A program made the translations under genes and the position numbers. A stretch of DNA of 64,000 bases. Origin: Anaerosomatales bacterium (GTDB lineage Bacteria > Actinomycetota > Coriobacteriia > Anaerosomatales > SLCP01). The stretch is from the NCBI GenBank assembly GCA_029210645.1, contig JARGFT010000005.1, positions 62,001-126,000 on the forward strand, in the 5' to 3' direction. The notes beneath the pieces are model-generated. The model saw nothing but the letters and a program-made list of their open reading frames with translations. It did no database searches and had not been told where the DNA came from. Below, in pieces: positions 18,366-63,647 of the stretch. Each line of letters starts with the position of its first letter. Position 1 is the stretch's first letter.

Positions 18366-19613
18366 TCACTGGTCGGAAAGTGTCTTCATGAATGTGACGA
18401 TCGCCGCTTCTTCGGCTTCGGTCAGACCGAGGTCACCGAGCTCATCGCTGTTAACGGTGTCCGGTACCTCGGGCTCGGGCCACATCTCGACGTCTCGCGT
18501 GTTGTAGAAGTGGACGATCTCCTCGAGACTCTTGAAGAACCCGTTGTGCCCGTATGCCTTCACGAACTCCGGATACGGACGCTTGTCGACGTTGCGGAGC
18601 GTCGGGACCTTGTGCTTGCCCCACTCGGCTTCGTACACGTCGGCATCGAATCCAGCGGCCTGGAGGAAGCCACCCAGCCCGGAATCGATCCATTCGAACC
18701 CGTCAGGATTGAACTTCTTCTGCGTGTAGAACGGGTTCACAGGATTCTTCGGCAGGCCGAGGTTGTCGTACGTGAAGTCGGTGAAGAGCGGGTATCCGGC
18801 CGAGCCCTCATCGAGCGTGTGGCACAGGCCGCACATGCCCTTCTCTTCGTCGTTGAAGACGGCGAAGCCGAAGACCTCGTCCGCACTCAGGCCGTAGCCA
18901 TAGAAGCTCTCGTAGTTGCCCGTGTCAATCGAGGCGGGATCGAGTCCGCCACCTTTCGTTGCATCCCAAAACGCGTCGAACCTCGAATCGAAGGGGTTGA
19001 CGACACGCGAGCGTTCGTACGCCGCTATAGACCGGGCGATCCGCTCGTAAGAGCCGTAGACATCGGTCTGGTAGTCGAGCGATCCGGGACCCCAGACCTC
19101 CTCGAAAAGGAACCTGTACGGCGACAGCCAGACCCTGAGCACGACGAGCTTCATCGCGGGCATGTTCTGTTCGACCGGGTTGAGGAACGGCCCCATGGCC
19201 TGTTCTGCCAGGGGGTCTCCCAGCATCCAGCCGGTAGCGCGACCGTCCCAGAACATCCCGCCGACCCAGACCTCCTCGTCTGCGTCGTAGTAGAGAACAG
19301 GGCTGTCCCCGCCATATGCCGAGGTCGGCGGCTTGCGGTTACCGAAGCGGGTCTTGATGGCCCCCGGATACACCGAGCCCGCCGCATTGATCTCCTCATC
19401 AGGGCCGGTGTATCCGGCATCTGGATCGTGACAGGTCGCGCATGACTGCCCGTTCGGTGTCGACAGGGTGATGTCATCGAAGAGCAGGTCGCCGAGCATC
19501 TCCATGGGAGTGTCGTACTCCTCATCGGCGGCGAGTGCCCATGCGGGCAGGCTGAACAGCAGAGCCGTCGCAACCCCCACGAACACGAGCAACGCAACTC
19601 GTTGCAGTTTCAT
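18366..19613 (-). CDS. Secreted di-haem cytochrome c peroxidase/MauG-like protein
   Basis: The 415-residue protein has a signal peptide (LALLVFVGVATALLF-type core, cleavage near AWALAA at about 29) and two c-haem sites: CATCH at 58-62 and CGLCH at 261-265. DPLAEQAMGPFLNPVEQNM, WDGRA and KVPTLRNV are typical of the CCP/MauG family, which reduces hydrogen peroxide or oxidises other substrates in the periplasm or outside the membrane. The ATG at 19613 is preceded by AAAGGGGGG; the upstream in-frame ATG has no ribosome site. The gene is single, with no electron-donor gene next to it. Confidence 0.9.
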   Translation of the reverse strand: MKLQRVALLVFVGVATALLFSLPAWALAADEEYDTPMEMLGDLLFDDITLSTPNGQSCATCHDPDAGYTGPDEEINAAGSVYPGAIKTRFGNRKPPTSAYGGDSPVLYYDADEEVWVGGMFWDGRATGWMLGDPLAEQAMGPFLNPVEQNMPAMKLVVLRVWLSPYRFLFEEVWGPGSLDYQTDVYGSYERIARSIAAYERSRVVNPFDSRFDAFWDATKGGGLDPASIDTGNYESFYGYGLSADEVFGFAVFNDEEKGMCGLCHTLDEGSAGYPLFTDFTYDNLGLPKNPVNPFYTQKKFNPDGFEWIDSGLGGFLQAAGFDADVYEAEWGKHKVPTLRNVDKRPYPEFVKAYGHNGFFKSLEEIVHFYNTRDVEMWPEPEVPDTVNSDELGDLGLTEAEEAAIVTFMKTLSDQ

Positions 19614-19712
19614 CCGGATCCCCCCTTTCGCGGCGTACATCGCACGTCGCACCGCACATGAAAGATGCCCCGATGCAGCCTATCTACCCGGGCGCGCGCT
19701 GTTCCTGACCGG

Positions 19713-27423: not shown

Positions 27424-27472
27424 AGACCTGTGAGCATCTCCGCGCGTTCCTACTCATTCCCGAGGAGTCTTG

Positions 27473-28393
27473 ATGCACAAGCAGACCATAGTGGTGGCGC
27501 TGGGCGGGAACGCGTTGCTCAAACGGTCGGAGCCGATGACCGCCGAGACGCAGCGTAAGAACGTCCGGATCGCCGCCCGTGCACTCGCTCCGATCGCGAT
27601 GGAGCACAACCTGGTGCTCGCGCACGGCAACGGCCCGCAGGTCGGCTTGCTGGCGCTCCAGGCAGCGGCATACACGGAGGTCGAGCCGTATCCGCTCGAC
27701 GTCCTCGGAGCACAGACCGAGGGAATGATCGGCTACATGATCGAGCAGGAGCTCGGCAACCTGCTCCCCTTCGAGAAGCCACTCGCGACGGTTCTCACCA
27801 TGGTCGAGGTCGACCCGGCCGACCCGGCGTTTGAGGACCCGACGAAGTTCGTGGGGCCCACCTACTCGAAACGCGACGCCGACCGGCTTCACAAGGCGAA
27901 GGGCTGGGTCTTCAAGAAGGACGGAGCGCACTGGCGTCGTGTCGTCGCCTCGCCCGAGCCGAAGCGCATCTTCGAGCTCAATCCCATCCGGTGGCTCATC
28001 GAGAAGGGGACGGTTGTAGTCTGTGCGGGCGGTGGCGGGATCCCGACGGCGTACCTCCCGGATGGCACCAGGACGCTCGTGGGTGCCGAGGCTGTCATCG
28101 ACAAGGACTTCGCGACCGCTCTCCTCGCGCGCGAACTCGGCGCCGATCTCTTCGTGATGGCGACCGATGCCGACGGCGTGTACCTGGAGTGGGGCAAGCT
28201 CACCCAGCAACTCCTCGAGCGAGTGACCGCGGACGAGATCGAATCCTACGATTTCCCCGCGGGCTCGATGGGGCCCAAGGTCGAAGCGGCCGTGCGCTTC
28301 GTCCGGGCGACAGGGAAGCGTGCGGCGATCGGCAACCTTGACGACATCGAGCGTATCGTTGCGGGCGAGGCGGGTACGAGCGTCGTCCCCTGA
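27473..28393 (+). CDS. arcC: Carbamate kinase
   Basis: The 306-residue enzyme transfers phosphate from carbamoyl phosphate to ADP, making ATP in arginine or citrulline fermentation. [10 protein letters not shown] near the N-terminus, [20 protein letters not shown] and [30 protein letters not shown] are signatures of the amino-acid kinase fold and of Arc[15 protein letters not shown] lies near the end. GAGGAG is 5 bases before the ATG. Arginine deiminase is encoded 31 kb away; arcB is not in the window. Confidence 0.95.
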
Positions 28394-52739: not shown

Positions 52740-55055
52740 TCAGCGCAGAGGCTTGAACACCGCACCCGCCGGTCGCCCGGTCAGTGGATCCATCGACCCG
52801 ACCAGGACCACCGGGACCTCTTCGCCGTGGAGGAAGCGGCCCGTGCGGGCGGCCTGCTCCGCGACAGTGGAGACCGCGTCGGCGCCAGGCTCTCCGAAGT
52901 GGTGGACGAGCACCGCGGGCTCGGGATCGGTGGCGCTGTCCCACACCCCCGCGATCCGCCCGTCAACGAGCACGACCGATGTCGCACGTCCCGCCGAATC
53001 GAAAACGTACGGGCGGTGTTCGTCGTCGAGGAAGCGGCCGCGCTTCCGGTACCCCATGAGCAGGGGATCGAGGCAGGGGAGTAGCGCGACCGACGGGCTT
53101 GGTGGGGCGCCGACCGAGGCGAGTTCGTCGACATCTGCCGCGTGCATCAGGAACTCGCCCTCGGCACCGAGCAGCACCACGGGAGCGATCTCGTCGCCGA
53201 GCGTTTCCAGAGCTTTGCGCGTGCGCTTGCGACCGATCCCGGTCCACCAGGCGGTGTCGTCGAAGAGCACCGGCCCGAACGCCCGAACGTGTGCACGCGT
53301 GAGCGCGACGTCCGCGTCGTCACGCCTGACCGAGTCGAGGCGGACTGTGGGCAGCGCATCGGCGAAGGGGATGTAGGTTGCGCGCCGGTCGCGCCAGTCA
53401 CCCACCGGGCAGTCCCGCAGCAGCGTTCCCTCTGCGCACATGACGTTCACTGCGGCCGCTATGTCCAGGTCGAGACCCGCCTTCTCGCGAATCGCGGCCG
53501 TGGTCAGCGGGCCGTCTGCCAGCGCGTCGAGTATCGCCTCCCGTGCCTGCTCGAGGCGTGCTCCGGACACGCCGCGAAACGATGCGTACGTGCGCGCGTA
53601 GTTCACGACGGGTCGGTTCGTGGCGGCGAAGACGACGGGCACCATGTCCGTGCGCACTGCGTACACCATGCCCCGCATGCAGCGGATCCTCGAGAGCGAC
53701 CGCCGCTGGTAGAGGGCCGAGTCGAGTTTGGCGGGCGTCATCGAGTCCAGGCGGGCCGAGAGCGCCAGATACGGCGTGGCGGGTACCGTGAACTGTGTGC
53801 CCACGACGTCGGCCACGACCGTCTCGATGCTCGCGGGCTCCCATGGATCCCCCAGGTGCTGACGGGCGAGCACGCGGGTCACGGCACGGGCCATCGGGAA
53901 CGAGGGCACCGTGGCAGGGACAGGACACGGTGCGGCGTCCCGTCTGCGGGGCGGCTGTGCGGCGATCGTGGCACTCCGCGAGCTCGGCAGCGCCTCGACG
54001 TCGATCGATGCGATCTCGTCGGCCAGCTCGGCCACGCGCGAGAGCGCGATCAGGCAGCGGGCGGTGGCAAAAGGCGACGGCTCGTGCTTCTGCCCGAACG
54101 AGAGGTCCGCGAACCCGCGGTAGACCCTTCTCGGGGTGACGCGCCCGTCCTCGTCGAAGTTGTACGCGATCAGACACGCGGCGAGCTCGGCGACCGAGCG
54201 CCGGTCATCGGCACGCGCCCGTGGCCCGCGCCACAGCTCGGGATACCTGCCGACGGTCTCGAGTACCCACAGTACGTCGTACCAGAAGTTCGGCCACTTC
54301 ACGCTCTTGAACTGGTATCCGTGGCCGAAGTCGTATGGGCGCTCCTCGGTGCGCCTGCGCCAGACCTCGAGGGGGGTCCGTGCCGCCTCGGCGATGCGTG
54401 GCGGACGCTCGTCGCGTGACAGCTGGGAGAACGCGCGAAGTCCCTCCAGTGTGACCTGCGGGCACACGTCGGCTCCACGGCCCGGCATGCGGAAGAACGC
54501 GCGTTGCTCCGGCACGCACTGCCAGGCTCTGCCCTGCGGCGTGGATGCGAGGTCGGCCGTCATTCGCTCGAGTGCGCGCTGCACTCCGCGCTGCTCGCCG
54601 CGGCCGAAGCGAAGCAGCACGTCGGCTATGACGTTCGTGTCGCACAGCAGCGAGCCGCTCTCGGGTTTGGGCCGGCCCCGGTCGGAGCCCGCTGCGTGGA
54701 AACGCCCGCGAGCGTCCTGCTGTGCGAGCATGCCGTCGAGCAACTCCTCCACGCGCGGGAAGTCGCCGGACGCGACCCCCATGTCGGCGAGCAGATTGAG
54801 CCGGTTGGGGAGGAACTCCGGACTGTGGTGCCCGGTGACGTCCTTGCCCGCCTCCCACGCAGGAAGCCGATCGACGAGTCGCCGGACCGCCTCGTTCTGC
54901 ACGACAGCCAGATGCGCTTCCCCCACGTCAGGGTCCCCGGGTGGCAGCCCGATGATCCCCGTGAGCGTTGCCCACACGGTGTACGGCTCGAGTGAGGCGA
55001 GGAGCCAGGGAAGCGGGTCGGCGCCGAGAAGCTCCGTGAAGTCGAAGTGGCTCAT
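52740..55055 (-). CDS. Alpha/alpha-toroid domain fused to AlkZ/YcaQ-like winged-helix protein
   Basis: The 771-residue protein has an N-terminal helical region (about 1-370) with toroid-type repeats such as LPNRLNLLADMG, LDGMLAQQDARGRF and LLCDTNVIADVLLRFG, then WPNFWYDVLWVLETV, resembling the cyclase-like proteins. The C-terminal part (about 385-771) matches the HTH_42/AlkZ family: ARQHLGDPWEP, VVADVVGTQFTVPATPYLALSARL, YQRRSLSRIRCMRG, then DPLLMGYRKRGRFLDDEHRPYVFDSAGRATSVVLVDGRIAGVW. AlkZ enzymes excise cross-linked bases; their usual QxQ or QxD catalytic motif appears here only as GTQFT, so activity is uncertain. It is convergent with the cyclase gene. Confidence 0.75.
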   Translation of the reverse strand: MSHFDFTELLGADPLPWLLASLEPYTVWATLTGIIGLPPGDPDVGEAHLAVVQNEAVRRLVDRLPAWEAGKDVTGHHSPEFLPNRLNLLADMGVASGDFPRVEELLDGMLAQQDARGRFHAAGSDRGRPKPESGSLLCDTNVIADVLLRFGRGEQRGVQRALERMTADLASTPQGRAWQCVPEQRAFFRMPGRGADVCPQVTLEGLRAFSQLSRDERPPRIAEAARTPLEVWRRRTEERPYDFGHGYQFKSVKWPNFWYDVLWVLETVGRYPELWRGPRARADDRRSVAELAACLIAYNFDEDGRVTPRRVYRGFADLSFGQKHEPSPFATARCLIALSRVAELADEIASIDVEALPSSRSATIAAQPPRRRDAAPCPVPATVPSFPMARAVTRVLARQHLGDPWEPASIETVVADVVGTQFTVPATPYLALSARLDSMTPAKLDSALYQRRSLSRIRCMRGMVYAVRTDMVPVVFAATNRPVVNYARTYASFRGVSGARLEQAREAILDALADGPLTTAAIREKAGLDLDIAAAVNVMCAEGTLLRDCPVGDWRDRRATYIPFADALPTVRLDSVRRDDADVALTRAHVRAFGPVLFDDTAWWTGIGRKRTRKALETLGDEIAPVVLLGAEGEFLMHAADVDELASVGAPPSPSVALLPCLDPLLMGYRKRGRFLDDEHRPYVFDSAGRATSVVLVDGRIAGVWDSATDPEPAVLVHHFGEPGADAVSTVAEQAARTGRFLHGEEVPVVLVGSMDPLTGRPAGAVFKPLR

Positions 55056-56442: not shown

Positions 56443-57210
56443 TCAGATGCCGGCGGAGCCCGCCTCCTCGGCTGCTCGTCGCGCCCTGCTTGCCTCGGCG
56501 GCCGCCTGCGCTCCCTTCTGCAGCGTGCCCGCCATCAGGAACCCTGCAAGCAGCAGGGCCGAGGCCACCATCTCTGCGGCGTAGAGCCCTACGGTTATGC
56601 CGGCACGTGCCATCGAGCCGGCGCCGGCGATCACGATCGTCCCTGCGGCGATGAGTACGTTGGCCCACACCCGGTAGGCGTACTCGCGCTTGCGCGCGAA
56701 GCGCCAGATGGACACCACCGCCCCGCCGAGCAGGAATATGGTCCCGGTGATGTTGAAGGGGAGTGACATGATGCGCGGGAAAGACCCTCCCGGGCCGAGC
56801 GCCTGGCCCCCTACGACGATGCCGGCGACCAGCTTGTCCTCCTGCAGATCGACGGTGAGCGCTCCCCAGAAGAAGATCGCGAGACACACGAGCAGGAACG
56901 CGAGGTAGAGCGTCGGCCAGAGCCGTTTGCGTGAGATGAGGTAGAGCGTGCCCAGACCGAGGAAGCCGACGAGCGAGGCCGCCAGCACGATGTAGATGCG
57001 GTAGACCCAGGGGATCCACTCTCCGGTGAACTCCGAGTAGGACTCCATCGCAGCAGCGGCGCCGTACATGAACAGCCCGACCGACCACGCGAGCTGGTGT
57101 GGTTTGCGGCGGTGGTACCACTGGTTGAGCACCAGGCCGGTGAAGATGAAGCCGAGGATCGCCGTGGCCGCGGGCCACCACCATCCGGACCAGAACTCCT
57201 GCGTGCCCAT
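56443..57210 (-). CDS. Seven-segment membrane protein of unknown function
   Basis: The 255-residue protein has about seven hydrophobic segments: WPAATAILGFIFTGLVL, LAWSVGLFMYGAAAA, VYRIYIVLAASLVGFLGL, LYLAFLLVCLAIFFW, IMSLPFNITGTIFLLGG, VWANVLIAAGTIVIAGAG and MVASALLLAGFLM, then an alanine/arginine-rich tail. It lacks histidine pairs for haem b, although a few single histidines lie at loop ends. A mono-haem peptide gene is 30 bases upstream in the same direction, so the two are probably one membrane unit. Family not recognised. Confidence 0.7.
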   Translation of the reverse strand: MGTQEFWSGWWWPAATAILGFIFTGLVLNQWYHRRKPHQLAWSVGLFMYGAAAAMESYSEFTGEWIPWVYRIYIVLAASLVGFLGLGTLYLISRKRLWPTLYLAFLLVCLAIFFWGALTVDLQEDKLVAGIVVGGQALGPGGSFPRIMSLPFNITGTIFLLGGAVVSIWRFARKREYAYRVWANVLIAAGTIVIAGAGSMARAGITVGLYAAEMVASALLLAGFLMAGTLQKGAQAAAEASRARRAAEEAGSAGI

Positions 57211-58570: not shown

Positions 58571-58993
58571 ATGCGACCGATGATGCGCGTGCTGCTGATA
58601 CTCATAGGAACGATCTCGCTCGGCCTCGGTGTCTTTGGAATGTTCGTTCCCATCCTGCCGACGACACCGTTCCTTCTGTTGACTGCGTTTTGCTACGGGC
58701 GCTCATCGGAGCGCCTGCATCGCTGGCTGATCAACCATCCCAGACTCGGAGTCTATCTGGTCGGCTTCCTGTACGGGGGCGGCATCCCGAGCCGCGCAAA
58801 GCGGGCGGCGCTCCTCACGCTCTGGCCCGGCATCGCACTCTCGAGCGTCATCATGGTCTGGCGTGTCAGCAACCCCGTTGTCTACATCGGCGTGCCGGTA
58901 CTGATCGTCGCCATCGCGACCGCGGTGACCGTCTACATCGTCACGCGGCCGGAGTGCGTCGAGCTCACCGAGGATGCCGAACCGTTCTGCTAG
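58571..58993 (+). CDS. DUF454 (YbaN) family inner-membrane protein
   Basis: The 140-residue protein has three or four hydrophobic segments and the family motif LGVFGMFVPILPTTPFLLLTAFCYGRSSERLHRWLINHP, followed by GGIPSRAKRAALLTLW. No ribosome site is seen before ATG 58571. TACAGT at 58558-58563 lies 7 bases upstream, so the message could be leaderless. ATG 58583 is an alternative start. Function is unknown in the family. Confidence 0.88.
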   Translation: MRPMMRVLLILIGTISLGLGVFGMFVPILPTTPFLLLTAFCYGRSSERLHRWLINHPRLGVYLVGFLYGGGIPSRAKRAALLTLWPGIALSSVIMVWRVSNPVVYIGVPVLIVAIATAVTVYIVTRPECVELTEDAEPFC

Positions 58994-59033
58994 TCTCTTG
59001 TCAGGCGCGCACCCGCATCGGGAAGGAGCTCGC

Positions 59034-60302
59034 GTGGAGCAGATCGGAGCGTACTCCGAGGTCGGAAGGTTGCGCACGGTGCTCGTGCACCGGCCCGGTA
59101 AGGCGCTTGAGCGTCTGACGCCGCACAACCGCGAGGAGTTCCTCTTCGACGACCTGGTGTGGGTCGAGCGCGCGCAGCGCGAGCACGATGAATTCGTTGC
59201 CGCGCTTCGTGACCGCGGGGTGGAGGTCCTCTACCTGAGTGACCTGCTCGTCGAGACCCTGGCAGCATCGGATGACGCCCGCAGCCACATCGTGGCACGC
59301 GCCGTGTCGGCGTACACGGTCGGACCCTCCCTCGTTCAGGATCTCAGGCAGTATCTCGTCGGGCTGCCGGCGGAGCGCCTCGCCGAGGCGCTCATCAGCG
59401 GGCTGCTCATCAGCGAGATCGAAGGGCTCGATGCCGCCGAACTTGCGCGCTACTCGCTCGGCGCGGTGTTGACCGACGAAGGCGGATTCGTCCTGCCGCC
59501 CCTGCCCAACACCATGTTCACGCGCGACTCCAGCGCCTGGCTCTACGGGGGAGTCGTGCTCCCGCCGCTCTTCTGGCACGCTCGCCGGCTCGAGGTCGTG
59601 AACGCCTCGACCGTGTACCGCTACCATCCCCGCTTCGCCGATGCCGACTTCCGTTTCTGGTACCCGCCACAGGGCGATGCCGAGCGTTTCGCGGTGGAGG
59701 ACCTCGGTCAGGGCGTGTCGCTGGAGGGCGGCGACATCATGCCGATCGGCAACAAGACCGTGCTGGTGGGAATGGGTGAGCGCTCGACCGGACGCATGGT
59801 CGAGCACATCGCGCACTCCCTGTTCGCGGCAGGGGCTGCCGACCGCATCATCGCGTGCCGGATGCCGCAGGACCGCGCCTACATGCACCTCGATACCGTC
59901 ATGACCTTTGTAGACCACGACGCGGTTACGATCTACCCCCGGGTCATCGAGGCGACGAAGGTCTACAGCGTGCGCCCGGGAGACCGGCCCGACGGGTTCG
60001 AGATCACCGAGGAACCCGGTCTGCTCGAGGCACTTGCCGATGCGCTCGATGTCGGCGAGATGCGGATCATACCCACGGGGGGCGATGCGTTCCAGGCGGC
60101 GCGCGAGCAGTGGGACGACGCCAACAACGTGGTGGCTATCGAGCCCGGCGTCGTGGTCGGCTACTCGAAGAACACCCACACCAACGCCGCGCTCAGGGCC
60201 GCCGGCGTCGAGGTCATCGAGGTCGAGGGCTCCGAGCTCGGCAAGGGGCGCGGCGGGTGCCACTGCATGACGTGCCCCATCTCGCGGGACTCGATCGTCT
60301 GA
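59034..60302 (+). CDS. arcA: Arginine deiminase
   Basis: The 422-residue enzyme turns arginine into citrulline and ammonia. It has the N-terminal LRTVLVHRPG, PPLPNTMFTRDSSAWL with the guanidino-binding aspartate, SLEGGDIMPI, YMHLDTVMTFVD with the catalytic histidine and aspartate, and the catalytic cysteine 411 in GRGGCHCMTCP. A second cysteine (409) two residues before it replaces the usual glycine. AAGGAG is 6 bases before the GTG at 59034. With the carbamate kinase at 27.5 kb it would support ATP formation from arginine, given an ornithine carbamoyltransferase elsewhere. Confidence 0.96.
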   Translation: MEQIGAYSEVGRLRTVLVHRPGKALERLTPHNREEFLFDDLVWVERAQREHDEFVAALRDRGVEVLYLSDLLVETLAASDDARSHIVARAVSAYTVGPSLVQDLRQYLVGLPAERLAEALISGLLISEIEGLDAAELARYSLGAVLTDEGGFVLPPLPNTMFTRDSSAWLYGGVVLPPLFWHARRLEVVNASTVYRYHPRFADADFRFWYPPQGDAERFAVEDLGQGVSLEGGDIMPIGNKTVLVGMGERSTGRMVEHIAHSLFAAGAADRIIACRMPQDRAYMHLDTVMTFVDHDAVTIYPRVIEATKVYSVRPGDRPDGFEITEEPGLLEALADALDVGEMRIIPTGGDAFQAAREQWDDANNVVAIEPGVVVGYSKNTHTNAALRAAGVEVIEVEGSELGKGRGGCHCMTCPISRDSIV

Positions 60303-60331: not shown

Positions 60332-61090
60332 TTACGCCGGTGCCAGCGTGTTCGCGAACACCAGCCACGCCAGCAGTGACTTGGCCGTGAGGCTCAGCAG
60401 CACGTACGTCGCCTCGCCCCACAGGTAGTCGCGCCACTTGCCGATCTGCTTGTACTGCAGCACCTGGTTGATCGCGAAGCTGTTGAAGAATATGAACATC
60501 GAGACGAAGATCCAGTAGACGAAGCTCGGCGGGTTGGCCTCCGAACCGGGGCTCCAAAGGTAGTATCCGATCGCGAGCCACGGCACGATCCCCGTGATGC
60601 ACCCGAAGATGAACGGCATCCAGTTGGGCCTGCCGGGCTCCTCGTAGTGCTCCATCAGCAGGCCGAAGAGGATCATCGAGACGTTCACGCCGAAGATCGC
60701 GACGAGCGCGGCTATGTCGAAGATGCCGGGGAGCATGGCGATGAGCACGACCATCAGCGACGAGCTCAGCGAGTACTCGATCCAGCGCGCGTAGTTCCGG
60801 TTGCGCTTGAGGTTCTTCACGTACCACGGGTAGATGCCTGGCGACGCGATCATGAAGTGGGCGAGCGCCGAGAGAAAGATGAAGGTTGCCACGGCGAACC
60901 CGAGTGGGACCTCGAACAGGGTCTCGGGGGCTCCGAGTGGCGTACCGAGCCGACCCTGAAGAAAGCTCGTGGTGACCGGCAGGGAGAAGTCATTGGAGAG
61001 CACGGCGATGGCCACGCCCTGCCCAAGGTGGAAGAGCCCCATCACCACGTTGTAGATGCGCAGCCGCCTGAACCGTGCTTCCTCGGCCAT
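60332..61090 (-). CDS. Heliorhodopsin
   Basis: The 252-residue protein has seven hydrophobic segments and the heliorhodopsin signatures: RLRIYNVVMGLFHLGQG (His21), LSALAHFMIASPG (His78), NYARWIEYSLSSSLMV (Glu105, the Schiff-base counterion position), MILFGLLMEHYE, FVSMFIFFNSFAINQVLQYKQIGKWRDYL, and LSLTAKSLLAW (Lys237, the retinal lysine, with Ser233 four residues before). The offsets between these residues agree with the described heliorhodopsins. This family has its N-terminus inside and does not pump ions in known members. GAGGGGTG precedes ATG 61090. The upstream SDR-DUF2867 gene ends 25 bases away on the same strand. Function as a light sensor is the general hypothesis for the family. 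Confidence 0.95.
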   Translation of the reverse strand: MAEEARFRRLRIYNVVMGLFHLGQGVAIAVLSNDFSLPVTTSFLQGRLGTPLGAPETLFEVPLGFAVATFIFLSALAHFMIASPGIYPWYVKNLKRNRNYARWIEYSLSSSLMVVLIAMLPGIFDIAALVAIFGVNVSMILFGLLMEHYEEPGRPNWMPFIFGCITGIVPWLAIGYYLWSPGSEANPPSFVYWIFVSMFIFFNSFAINQVLQYKQIGKWRDYLWGEATYVLLSLTAKSLLAWLVFANTLAPA

Positions 61091-61115
61091 TTCCGACACC
61101 CCTCTCATCTGCCGC

Positions 61116-62651
61116 CTATGATGCCTCGTCCCGCTCCGCCGACCTACGCTTGTCGAGCGCGGCCTCGTACGCGCCTGGAAGCGGGCACGTGTTCGGGCCC
61201 TCGACCAGCGCACGGCACTCACGGTCTATACCCTTGAGCGTCCCTTCGAAGACGAAGTGATGAAACGGGAGTACGAGATACCAGTACGCCCGGCCGATCA
61301 CGCCCTTCGCGTGGAAGATCGCCGTCTGCCTCACGAGAGAACCCTCGTCGTGCGGTTCGATCTCGTACTGGAGCCAGCCAGCTCCCGGAAGGCGCATCTC
61401 CGCGTGCAGGCGGAGCAGTCGCGGGGGACGGACCGTCTCGACACGCCACCATTCGAGGAAGTCCCCCTCCACGAGCGCGTACTGGTCGCGTCTGCCGCGC
61501 CGGTGTCCCGGCCCTCCGACGAGGATGTCGAAGAAGCCACGGATGTCCCACAGCGTGTCGAATGCGTACCAGCCGCGCTCGCCGCCGATGCACGCGATCG
61601 GATCGAATGCGGCTTCCGGCGGGCAGTGTGCGTGGATAGTGCGTGAGTCGACGTACCGACCCGCGCGCACGAGTGAGATCGGGGTCGTCTTCCCCCGGAA
61701 CTCGTCGGACCAGGCCGTTTCTGCAAACGACTCGTCCTCCTCGGCGAAGGTGCGGGCGATCGCCTCGGTCGCGCCGATGGGACGGATCGAGGGAAAGTCG
61801 CGGGTGGCCGTGTCGTTAGAGACAACCGTCGGGAAGCGTAGTGACTCGGCGAGCTGGCGGCCGACGGTGGCCTCTTTGGGGGTGAACAGGTAGAGCCACC
61901 ACCCCGACAACCCCGGGGAGAGGACCGGCACCGGAATGATGAGCCGGCGAAGCCCTCGGCTTGCCGCATAGAGGCGCAGGAGGCCGCTGTAGGAGACGAC
62001 CTCGGTACCTCCGATCTCGTAGACGGTGTGCGGGTCGGCGCGGGCAGGGAGGTCGATCGCGGCGGAGAGGTAGGCGAGCACGTCGGATATCGCGATGGGC
62101 TGTGCGTCCATGCGCACCCACCTCGGCGTGGTCATCACGGGAAGCTTCTCCACGAGGTTGCGGATCATCTCGAAAGAGGTCGAGCCTGTCCCGATCACGA
62201 TGGACGCCCGAAACTCGACGACTTCGACTCCCGTCGAGGCAAGGACGCGCCCCACCTCCTGGCGGCTTGCGAGGTGCTCGGAGAGTGCTGTCGAGGTGTC
62301 GCCGAGCCCTCCGAGATAGACGATGCGCCGGACTCCCGCGTCGCGGGCCGCCCCGGCGAAGATGCGCGCCGCCTGCCGGTCGCGTTCGGCGTAACCCGCT
62401 CCGCCGCCGAGGGTGTGCACGAGGTAGTACGCGGTGTGGACCCCGCGCATCGAGGAGGCCACCGCCTCCGCGTCCATGGCCTCGGCCCGCACGACCTCGA
62501 CCTCCGGCAGCTGTCTGACCTTCTCGGGCGAGCGTGCGGAAGCGCGCACCCGGTGGCCCGCCGAGGACAGCGAGACCAGAAGCTGCGAGCCGATGTAGCC
62601 GGTCGCCGCGTTCACGAGCACCAGCCGATCGCCGCGTGCCGCTGTCTCCAT
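61116..62651 (-). CDS. NmrA-like SDR fused to DUF2867 domain
   Basis: The 511-residue protein has an N-terminal atypical SDR/Rossmann domain (NAATGYIGSQLLVSLS at about 14-29, then IVYLGGLGD and VVEFRASIVIG) and, from about 330 to 490, a DUF2867 domain (WYAFDTLWDIRGFFDILVGG, FLEWWRVE, LLRLHAEMRLPGAGWLQYEIEP, FHAKGVIGRAYWYLVLPFHHFVFEGTLKGI). The combination is known from bacterial epimerase-like proteins; the DUF2867 part has a START/SRPBCC-like look and may bind a hydrophobic ligand. GAGGGGG precedes ATG 62651. It is co-oriented with and probably co-transcribed with the heliorhodopsin gene. Confidence 0.88.
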   Translation of the reverse strand: METAARGDRLVLVNAATGYIGSQLLVSLSSAGHRVRASARSPEKVRQLPEVEVVRAEAMDAEAVASSMRGVHTAYYLVHTLGGGAGYAERDRQAARIFAGAARDAGVRRIVYLGGLGDTSTALSEHLASRQEVGRVLASTGVEVVEFRASIVIGTGSTSFEMIRNLVEKLPVMTTPRWVRMDAQPIAISDVLAYLSAAIDLPARADPHTVYEIGGTEVVSYSGLLRLYAASRGLRRLIIPVPVLSPGLSGWWLYLFTPKEATVGRQLAESLRFPTVVSNDTATRDFPSIRPIGATEAIARTFAEEDESFAETAWSDEFRGKTTPISLVRAGRYVDSRTIHAHCPPEAAFDPIACIGGERGWYAFDTLWDIRGFFDILVGGPGHRRGRRDQYALVEGDFLEWWRVETVRPPRLLRLHAEMRLPGAGWLQYEIEPHDEGSLVRQTAIFHAKGVIGRAYWYLVLPFHHFVFEGTLKGIDRECRALVEGPNTCPLPGAYEAALDKRRSAERDEAS

Positions 62652-62786: not shown

Positions 62787-63647
62787 GTGGGCGCGATGGA
62801 AGGCAAGCGGGTACTGGTCACCGGTGCGAGCAGCGGGATCGGCCTGGCCGCCGCGCTCGAGTTCGCGCGGATGGGCGCCGAGGTCGTGCTCCACGTGCGC
62901 CACGAGCAGCGTGGGCAGGCCGCACGGGAGTTGATCGCACGTGAGACCGGAAGCGAGCGGACCGAACTCCTGCGTGCCGACTTCGGCGATCTGTGCGAGG
63001 TGCGCGCGGTGGCCGAGCGCTTCACTGGCCTGCACGACCGGCTCGACGTGCTCGTGGCCAATGCAGGTGCCATCTACCCGCAGCGCCAGCTGACCATCCA
63101 GGGCAACGAGATCACCTTCCAGGTCGATCACCTTGCCCACTTCCTCCTGTGCGCGCTGCTCGAGCCGGTTCTCGTCGCTTCGGCCCCCGCACGGGTGGTC
63201 ACGGTGTCGAGCGATGCGCACTGGGCGGCGTGGCGCGGCGTGCGGCTCGACGATCCGACCTACGAGCATGGGTGGAGTCCGTTCGGTGCGTACGCCAATG
63301 CCAAACTGGCCAACATCATGTTCTGCTACGAGCACGCACGAAGGTTCCACGGTACCGGCGTGACCAGCACGGTCATGCATCCCGGTCTGGTCGATAGTGG
63401 CTTTGGTGCGGCAGGCTACGGGGTGTTCGGCTCGATGATGCATCGCCTGTCACCCCTGATCGCATCGACACCCGAGGTCGGCGCGGACACCCTCGTGTGG
63501 CTCGCCTCCTCACACGAGGTGGAGGGCGTCACCGGCCGCTACTTCTACCGCCGTGACACGCGGCGCTCGTCGCCCGCAAGTCACGACCGCGATGCGCAGC
63601 GCGCACTGTGGGAGCTGAGCGCCGAGCTCACCGACTCCGCCCGTTAG
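62787..63647 (+). CDS. SDR oxidoreductase, retinol-dehydrogenase-like subfamily
   Basis: The 286-residue protein has the classical cofactor motif TGASSGIGLA at about 13-22, an arginine after strand 2 (HVRHE) favouring NADP, NAG at about 92-94, and the catalytic serine (VVTVSSDAHW) with YANAKLAN for the Tyr-x3-Lys pair. NEITFQVDHLAHFLL, YANAKLANIMFCYE and GTGVTSTVMHPGLVDSGFG match the retinol-dehydrogenase-like branch of the SDRs, whose members have diverse hydrophobic substrates. GGAGG is 5 bases before GTG 62787. It is divergent from the heliorhodopsin operon and overlaps the convergent symporter gene by 20 bases. Confidence 0.88.
   Translation: MGAMEGKRVLVTGASSGIGLAAALEFARMGAEVVLHVRHEQRGQAARELIARETGSERTELLRADFGDLCEVRAVAERFTGLHDRLDVLVANAGAIYPQRQLTIQGNEITFQVDHLAHFLLCALLEPVLVASAPARVVTVSSDAHWAAWRGVRLDDPTYEHGWSPFGAYANAKLANIMFCYEHARRFHGTGVTSTVMHPGLVDSGFGAAGYGVFGSMMHRLSPLIASTPEVGADTLVWLASSHEVEGVTGRYFYRRDTRRSSPASHDRDAQRALWELSAELTDSAR

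Follow-up and report, generated by a model that had tools for sequence, protein, structure and literature searches.

The described systems closest to the heliorhodopsin (HeR) locus considered here are 48C12, the HeR of a freshwater actinobacterium (PDB 6su3, 6su4 and 6uh3), and TaHeR, from the Thermoplasmatales archaeon SG8-52-1 (PDB 6is6 and 7u55). HeR hosts that lack retinal synthesis are already known: such a lack has been reported for the host of TaHeR (PMC9385722) and for 'Ca. Actinomarinales', which carry HeR and no retinal synthesis genes (PMC7771536). Other members of the same family are AbHeR, TfHeR and OcHeR, which are paired with glutamine synthetase, photolyase and the ABC transporter OmrDE, respectively (PMC9529153, PMC9769723, PMC11109279), and the same light-dependent control of a neighbor's product is presumed for the HeR described below. 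Of these, OcHeR has its absorbance band at 554 nm. More generally, the gene neighborhoods of HeRs have been published as promiscuous, and HeRs have been linked to redox genes (PMC8612252).

The window, by which we mean the whole stretch of 64,000 nucleotides that was analyzed, comes from a member of the order Anaerosomatales (former OPB41; Coriobacteriia) whose genome is 1.98 Mb in size and 100% complete. The HeR gene and the features that surround it are collected in Table 1.

Table 1. Features of the HeR locus, with positions in the window
Feature	Position	Strand	Basis and remarks
Heliorhodopsin (HeR) gene, 252 aa	60332..61090	(-)	ORF reading, profiles, residues, modeled fold
Shine-Dalgarno-like GAGAGGGG, 8 bases 5' of the HeR ATG	61099..61106	(-)	sequence reading
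Upstream gene, 511 aa, NmrA/NAD(P)-binding + DUF2867	61116..62651	(-)	domain search; 25 bp between its stop codon and the HeR start
Arginine deiminase (arcA), convergent with HeR, whose stop is 29 bp away	58974..60302	(+)	domain/family search
Classical short-chain dehydrogenase (PRK06197-like), divergent	62787..63647	(+)	domain/family search

The HeR open reading frame begins with an ATG at 61090 and ends with a stop at 60332. The mechanical reading frame extends as far as 61222; a start at the ATG is favored by both the match to the family and the ribosome site. The protein matches the Pfam HeR model PF18761 with E=7.4e-102 and 340 bits (cut-off 26.7) over model positions 1-242 of 242, the NCBIfam HeR equivalog NF038020 with 335 bits (cut-off 100), and 48C12 in a PDB search with E=1e-78, scores that rule out a chance match. 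Identity is 53% over 246 residues to 48C12 and 50% to TaHeR. The preliminary description had assigned the protein to the heliorhodopsins on the strength of five residues, and all of these lie where it placed them: Lys237, the retinal lysine, and Ser233 (SxxxK, helix 7) align with K241 and S237 of 48C12, the helix 3 counterion Glu105 with E107, and His21 and His78 of the Schiff-base region with H23 and H80. The NSFAINQVLQYKQIGKW that it also reported is found in the protein. The Arg102/Glu147 pair (R104 and E149 in 48C12) is conserved as well, as are Q26, S76 and W246 (48C12 numbering), all of them positions considered in connection with the 48C12 and TaHeR structures. All tested residues of the Schiff-base region are thus common to 48C12 and the window HeR, whereas W163 of 48C12 is replaced by I161; S112 and N138 of 48C12, which are A and T in TaHeR, correspond to S110 and N136.

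An AlphaFold2 model of the protein (mean pLDDT 91) has seven transmembrane helices and superposes on 48C12 (6su3) with a TM-score of 0.92 at 1.5 A, as against TM-scores of about 0.5-0.65 and identities of 11-17% in structural alignments with type-1 rhodopsins. The charge bias of the loops fits a cytoplasmic N-terminus, and the homologues are oriented N-in. In a tree built from heliorhodopsins only, with no type-1 outgroup, the window HeR falls among the HeRs of its order, and the branches of 48C12 and TaHeR lie next to this group. Profiles, residues, tree and fold all uphold the earlier assignment. Judged by its sequence and modeled fold, the gene product is a genuine, ordinary and intact heliorhodopsin of the known family; homology, residues and model predict that Lys237 binds retinal, that Glu105 is the counterion and that the N-terminus is inside.

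The host of 48C12 is a freshwater actinobacterium, whereas that of the window HeR is an anaerobe of the Coriobacteriia. Cultured Anaerosomatales, whose sources were a deep aquifer and a mud volcano, are obligate anaerobes (PMC9686372), and neither a heme-copper oxidase (COX1) nor cytochrome bd was found in the host genome. Genes of amino-acid catabolism in the window encode arginine deiminase, an aromatic amino acid lyase, an imidazolonepropionase-like amidohydrolase, an amino acid kinase and M28 peptidases, and an adenosine deaminase represents nucleoside catabolism. The earlier picture of a possibly anaerobic, amino-acid-degrading actinobacterium fits this setting. The amino acid kinase family protein (27470-28393, plus strand), about 31 kb from the arginine deiminase, is possibly a carbamate kinase, which if true would complete the arginine deiminase route. 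A di-heme cytochrome c peroxidase/MauG family protein is encoded at 18366-19652 (minus strand) in this presumed anaerobe.

The supply of retinal is where the interest of these hosts lies. Phytoene/squalene synthase (PF00494; control genomes positive in 7 of 14), RPE65-type carotenoid oxygenase (PF03055; positive controls matched) and Blh/BCD-type dioxygenase (PF15461) were each found in 0 of 69 Anaerosomatales genomes, the last search being validated at phylum level, where the same model matches 13 of 246 genomes. Known cleavage of beta-carotene to retinal requires oxygen. BCD was detected in only 5 of the 70 HeR genomes of the wider phylum, which indicates that its absence is common among HeR hosts. 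The possibility of further rhodopsins, raised in the preliminary description, was followed up in the host genome, which has zero matches to the type-1 model PF01036; no type-1 rhodopsin was found in the 69 genomes of the order either. A type-1 match in one of them (G007) was rejected, as it falls in the same place as that genome's heliorhodopsin. In this respect the Anaerosomatales differ from the 'Ca. Actinomarinales', which share the lack of retinal synthesis but are aerobic photoheterotrophs with a type-1 proton pump.

HeR is present in 41 of the 69 Anaerosomatales genomes and in 70 of 246 genomes sampled across the phylum, and was found in none of the other Coriobacteriia listed in that sample. 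Within the order, 6 of the 17 genomes that have an oxygen reductase carry HeR, against 35 of the 52 that lack one (Fisher p=0.025, with genomes treated as independent); HeR is not tied to oxygen respiration. The Anaerosomatales HeRs form a single group (UFB 99) with two subgroups, the copy of G009 excepted, which branches with those of Parasporobacterium and others and is probably a separate acquisition. This HeR (locus L076, in a complete genome) shares about 51% identity with the window copy. One genome of the window's own genus (G058) holds a HeR of the other subgroup, and another genome (G067) has two HeRs, one per subgroup (L078 and L098). The tree pattern implies that HeR is old in the Anaerosomatales, with some exchange, replacement or duplication. 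Among the HeR-bearing genomes, G004 and G008 are probably those of the obligately anaerobic type strains Anaerosoma tenue M08DHB and Parvivirga hydrogeniphila Es71-Z0120; the name Es71, together with a published well list (PMC11708057), suggests that the source well of the latter strain is 999 m deep. The HeR-bearing relatives probably include deep-aquifer and mud-volcano strains, and some of these relatives probably come from lightless habitats.

The pocket residues H21, Q24, S74, H78, R102, E105, E147, S233, K237 and W242 are invariant in all 35 full-length Anaerosomatales HeRs, a set that includes the copies of G004 and G008, and dN/dS is 0.12-0.20 (about 0.13 in summary), with values of 0.12-0.15 when the window copy is compared with its closest relatives. 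Together these observations imply that the gene is in use and its pocket constrained, and a constrained pocket points to bound retinal over an empty opsin. The simplest reading of the sequences is that the Anaerosomatales HeRs still bind retinal, which would hence be scavenged.

None of the partners of AbHeR, TfHeR and OcHeR adjoins HeR in the window. The upstream NmrA/DUF2867 gene is likely co-transcribed with HeR, to judge from the arrangement of the two genes; the same order recurs in one sister species (G060), and this neighbor is present at 2 of 38 Anaerosomatales HeR loci. A published survey counts SDR oxidoreductases among ten frequent HeR operon partners, although its SDR class may not cover DUF2867 (PMC11109279). 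The divergent short-chain dehydrogenase lies near HeR solely in the window genome and G060. A role for it as a retinol dehydrogenase is unsupported: the solved structures nearest to it belong to protochlorophyllide reductases and to other short-chain dehydrogenases, and only one sister has it near HeR. Clustering of neighbors revealed no general partner gene beside HeR at most of the 38 loci, which agrees with the promiscuity described for other HeRs. Two further genes near the window HeR recur elsewhere. A 255-aa membrane protein with several hydrophobic stretches (56443-57210, minus strand), which has zero Pfam or NCBIfam matches, occupies a conserved position in three species of the genus. 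The other gene (52740-55055, minus strand) encodes 771 aa, with an AlkZ-like DNA glycosylase domain in the C-terminal half and no assignment for the N-terminal half; its homologues lie close to HeR both in G036 and within the genus.

Genes for hemerythrin-, AhpC-, SOUL-, FUR- and nitroreductase-like proteins number 11 in 208 kb around Anaerosomatales HeRs (within 3 kb), against 1 in 716 kb of control DNA drawn from other parts of Anaerosomatales genomes, an enrichment that is inflated because the seed proteins were picked from HeR neighbors. Only four redox recurrences, in further genera, are free of this choice (Poisson p 0.0002 to 0.01, by assumed background), and some of the four may be inherited synteny. 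The linkage of redox genes to HeR is therefore taken as support, not as proof. In two other genomes a SOUL heme-binding protein (L075 9849-10415, G027) and a GGDEF protein whose sensor domain is Tll0287-like (L086 9875-11122, G021) directly flank HeRs, and for these a heme or redox link is possible.

We hold with moderate confidence that the window HeR acts as a regulatory photosensor on scavenged retinal. Since the cell has no known route of retinal synthesis, the protein would be loaded with external retinal or a retinoid, which would probably enter sideways from the membrane via the fenestration described for HeRs. By analogy with characterized HeRs, light would then induce a change in the shape of the protein and modulate a partner on the cytoplasmic side, with no ion pumping. 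In the Anaerosomatales this partner would most likely have a redox or oxidative-stress function, and light may thereby signal to an obligate anaerobe that its surroundings are oxic or photo-oxidative. The NAD(P)-binding NmrA/DUF2867 protein of the presumed operon might be the best candidate that the window offers. HeR would most likely be a light-dependent regulator of redox defense or metabolism. Counting against a photosensor, a light sensor has no evident use in those HeR-bearing relatives that probably come from lightless habitats.

That same difficulty, together with the finding of retinal synthesis in 0 of 69 genomes, is what recommends a light-independent membrane protein, in which the opsin would act as an apoprotein or through a hydrophobic ligand, be it a retinoid or not. 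We consider this unlikely, as the retinal lysine, the counterion and the Schiff-base histidines, all needs of retinal photochemistry, are kept in 35 of 35 HeRs. A related proposition, that selection keeps HeR in lineages without retinal synthesis or usual light for a function independent of light, in which the retinal pocket senses the redox state or some membrane ligand, retinoid-like or otherwise, appears slighter still in its prospects.

To a comparable degree we doubt that HeR signals as a light sensor to a histidine kinase and an OmpR-type response regulator encoded about 4-6 kb upstream in the host. The two genes lie side by side in the vicinity of HeR in G030 and in three species of the genus, with the shortest distance to HeR in G059, and kinases are about 3.4 times denser around HeRs than in control DNA, a trend also seen by Bulzu et al. 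(PMC8612252); this excess is weak, however (Poisson p about 0.03), and an orthologue of the response regulator (~65-70% identity) occurs in about 40 of the 69 genomes, with or without HeR and mostly elsewhere in the genome. The pair was rejected as a specific HeR partner, since the regulator is order-wide and usually unlinked.

A nitrogen or arginine regulator, in which HeR would work with arginine deiminase as AbHeR does on glutamine synthetase, is very unlikely. HeR binding of glutamine synthetase has been published (PMC9529153), and the convergent HeR/arcA pair, with 13-34 bp between the genes, recurs in G036, which belongs to another family, as well as in three species of the genus; but the pair is missing from most HeR loci of the order, inherited synteny explains it, and the two genes, being convergent, are not co-transcribed. 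An ion transporter resembling the viral V2HeR3 is scarcely credible: this one viral HeR of the same family is reported to transport protons (PMC9448325), but OcHeR does not pump ions (PMC11109279), the prokaryotic HeRs are in general said not to pump (PMC8612252), and the window HeR carries the residues of 48C12.

No report of HeR in the Anaerosomatales by name was found in the literature searched, although the genomes may figure in supplementary tables of HeR surveys, and rhodopsin goes unmentioned in the published description of the order. The protein itself is a routine HeR; its interest lies in an order of anaerobes that keeps a perfect retinal site without known retinal synthesis. The Anaerosomatales offer a clean natural test of the need for light and of the source of retinal: most of their genomes combine a fully conserved retinal site with the lack of known retinal or carotenoid synthesis, of any other rhodopsin and often of an oxygen reductase. 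Two described type strains probably carry HeR, and yeast extract is not needed for the growth of one, P. hydrogeniphila Es71-Z0120, which is grown with vitamins; this makes the question experimentally tractable.
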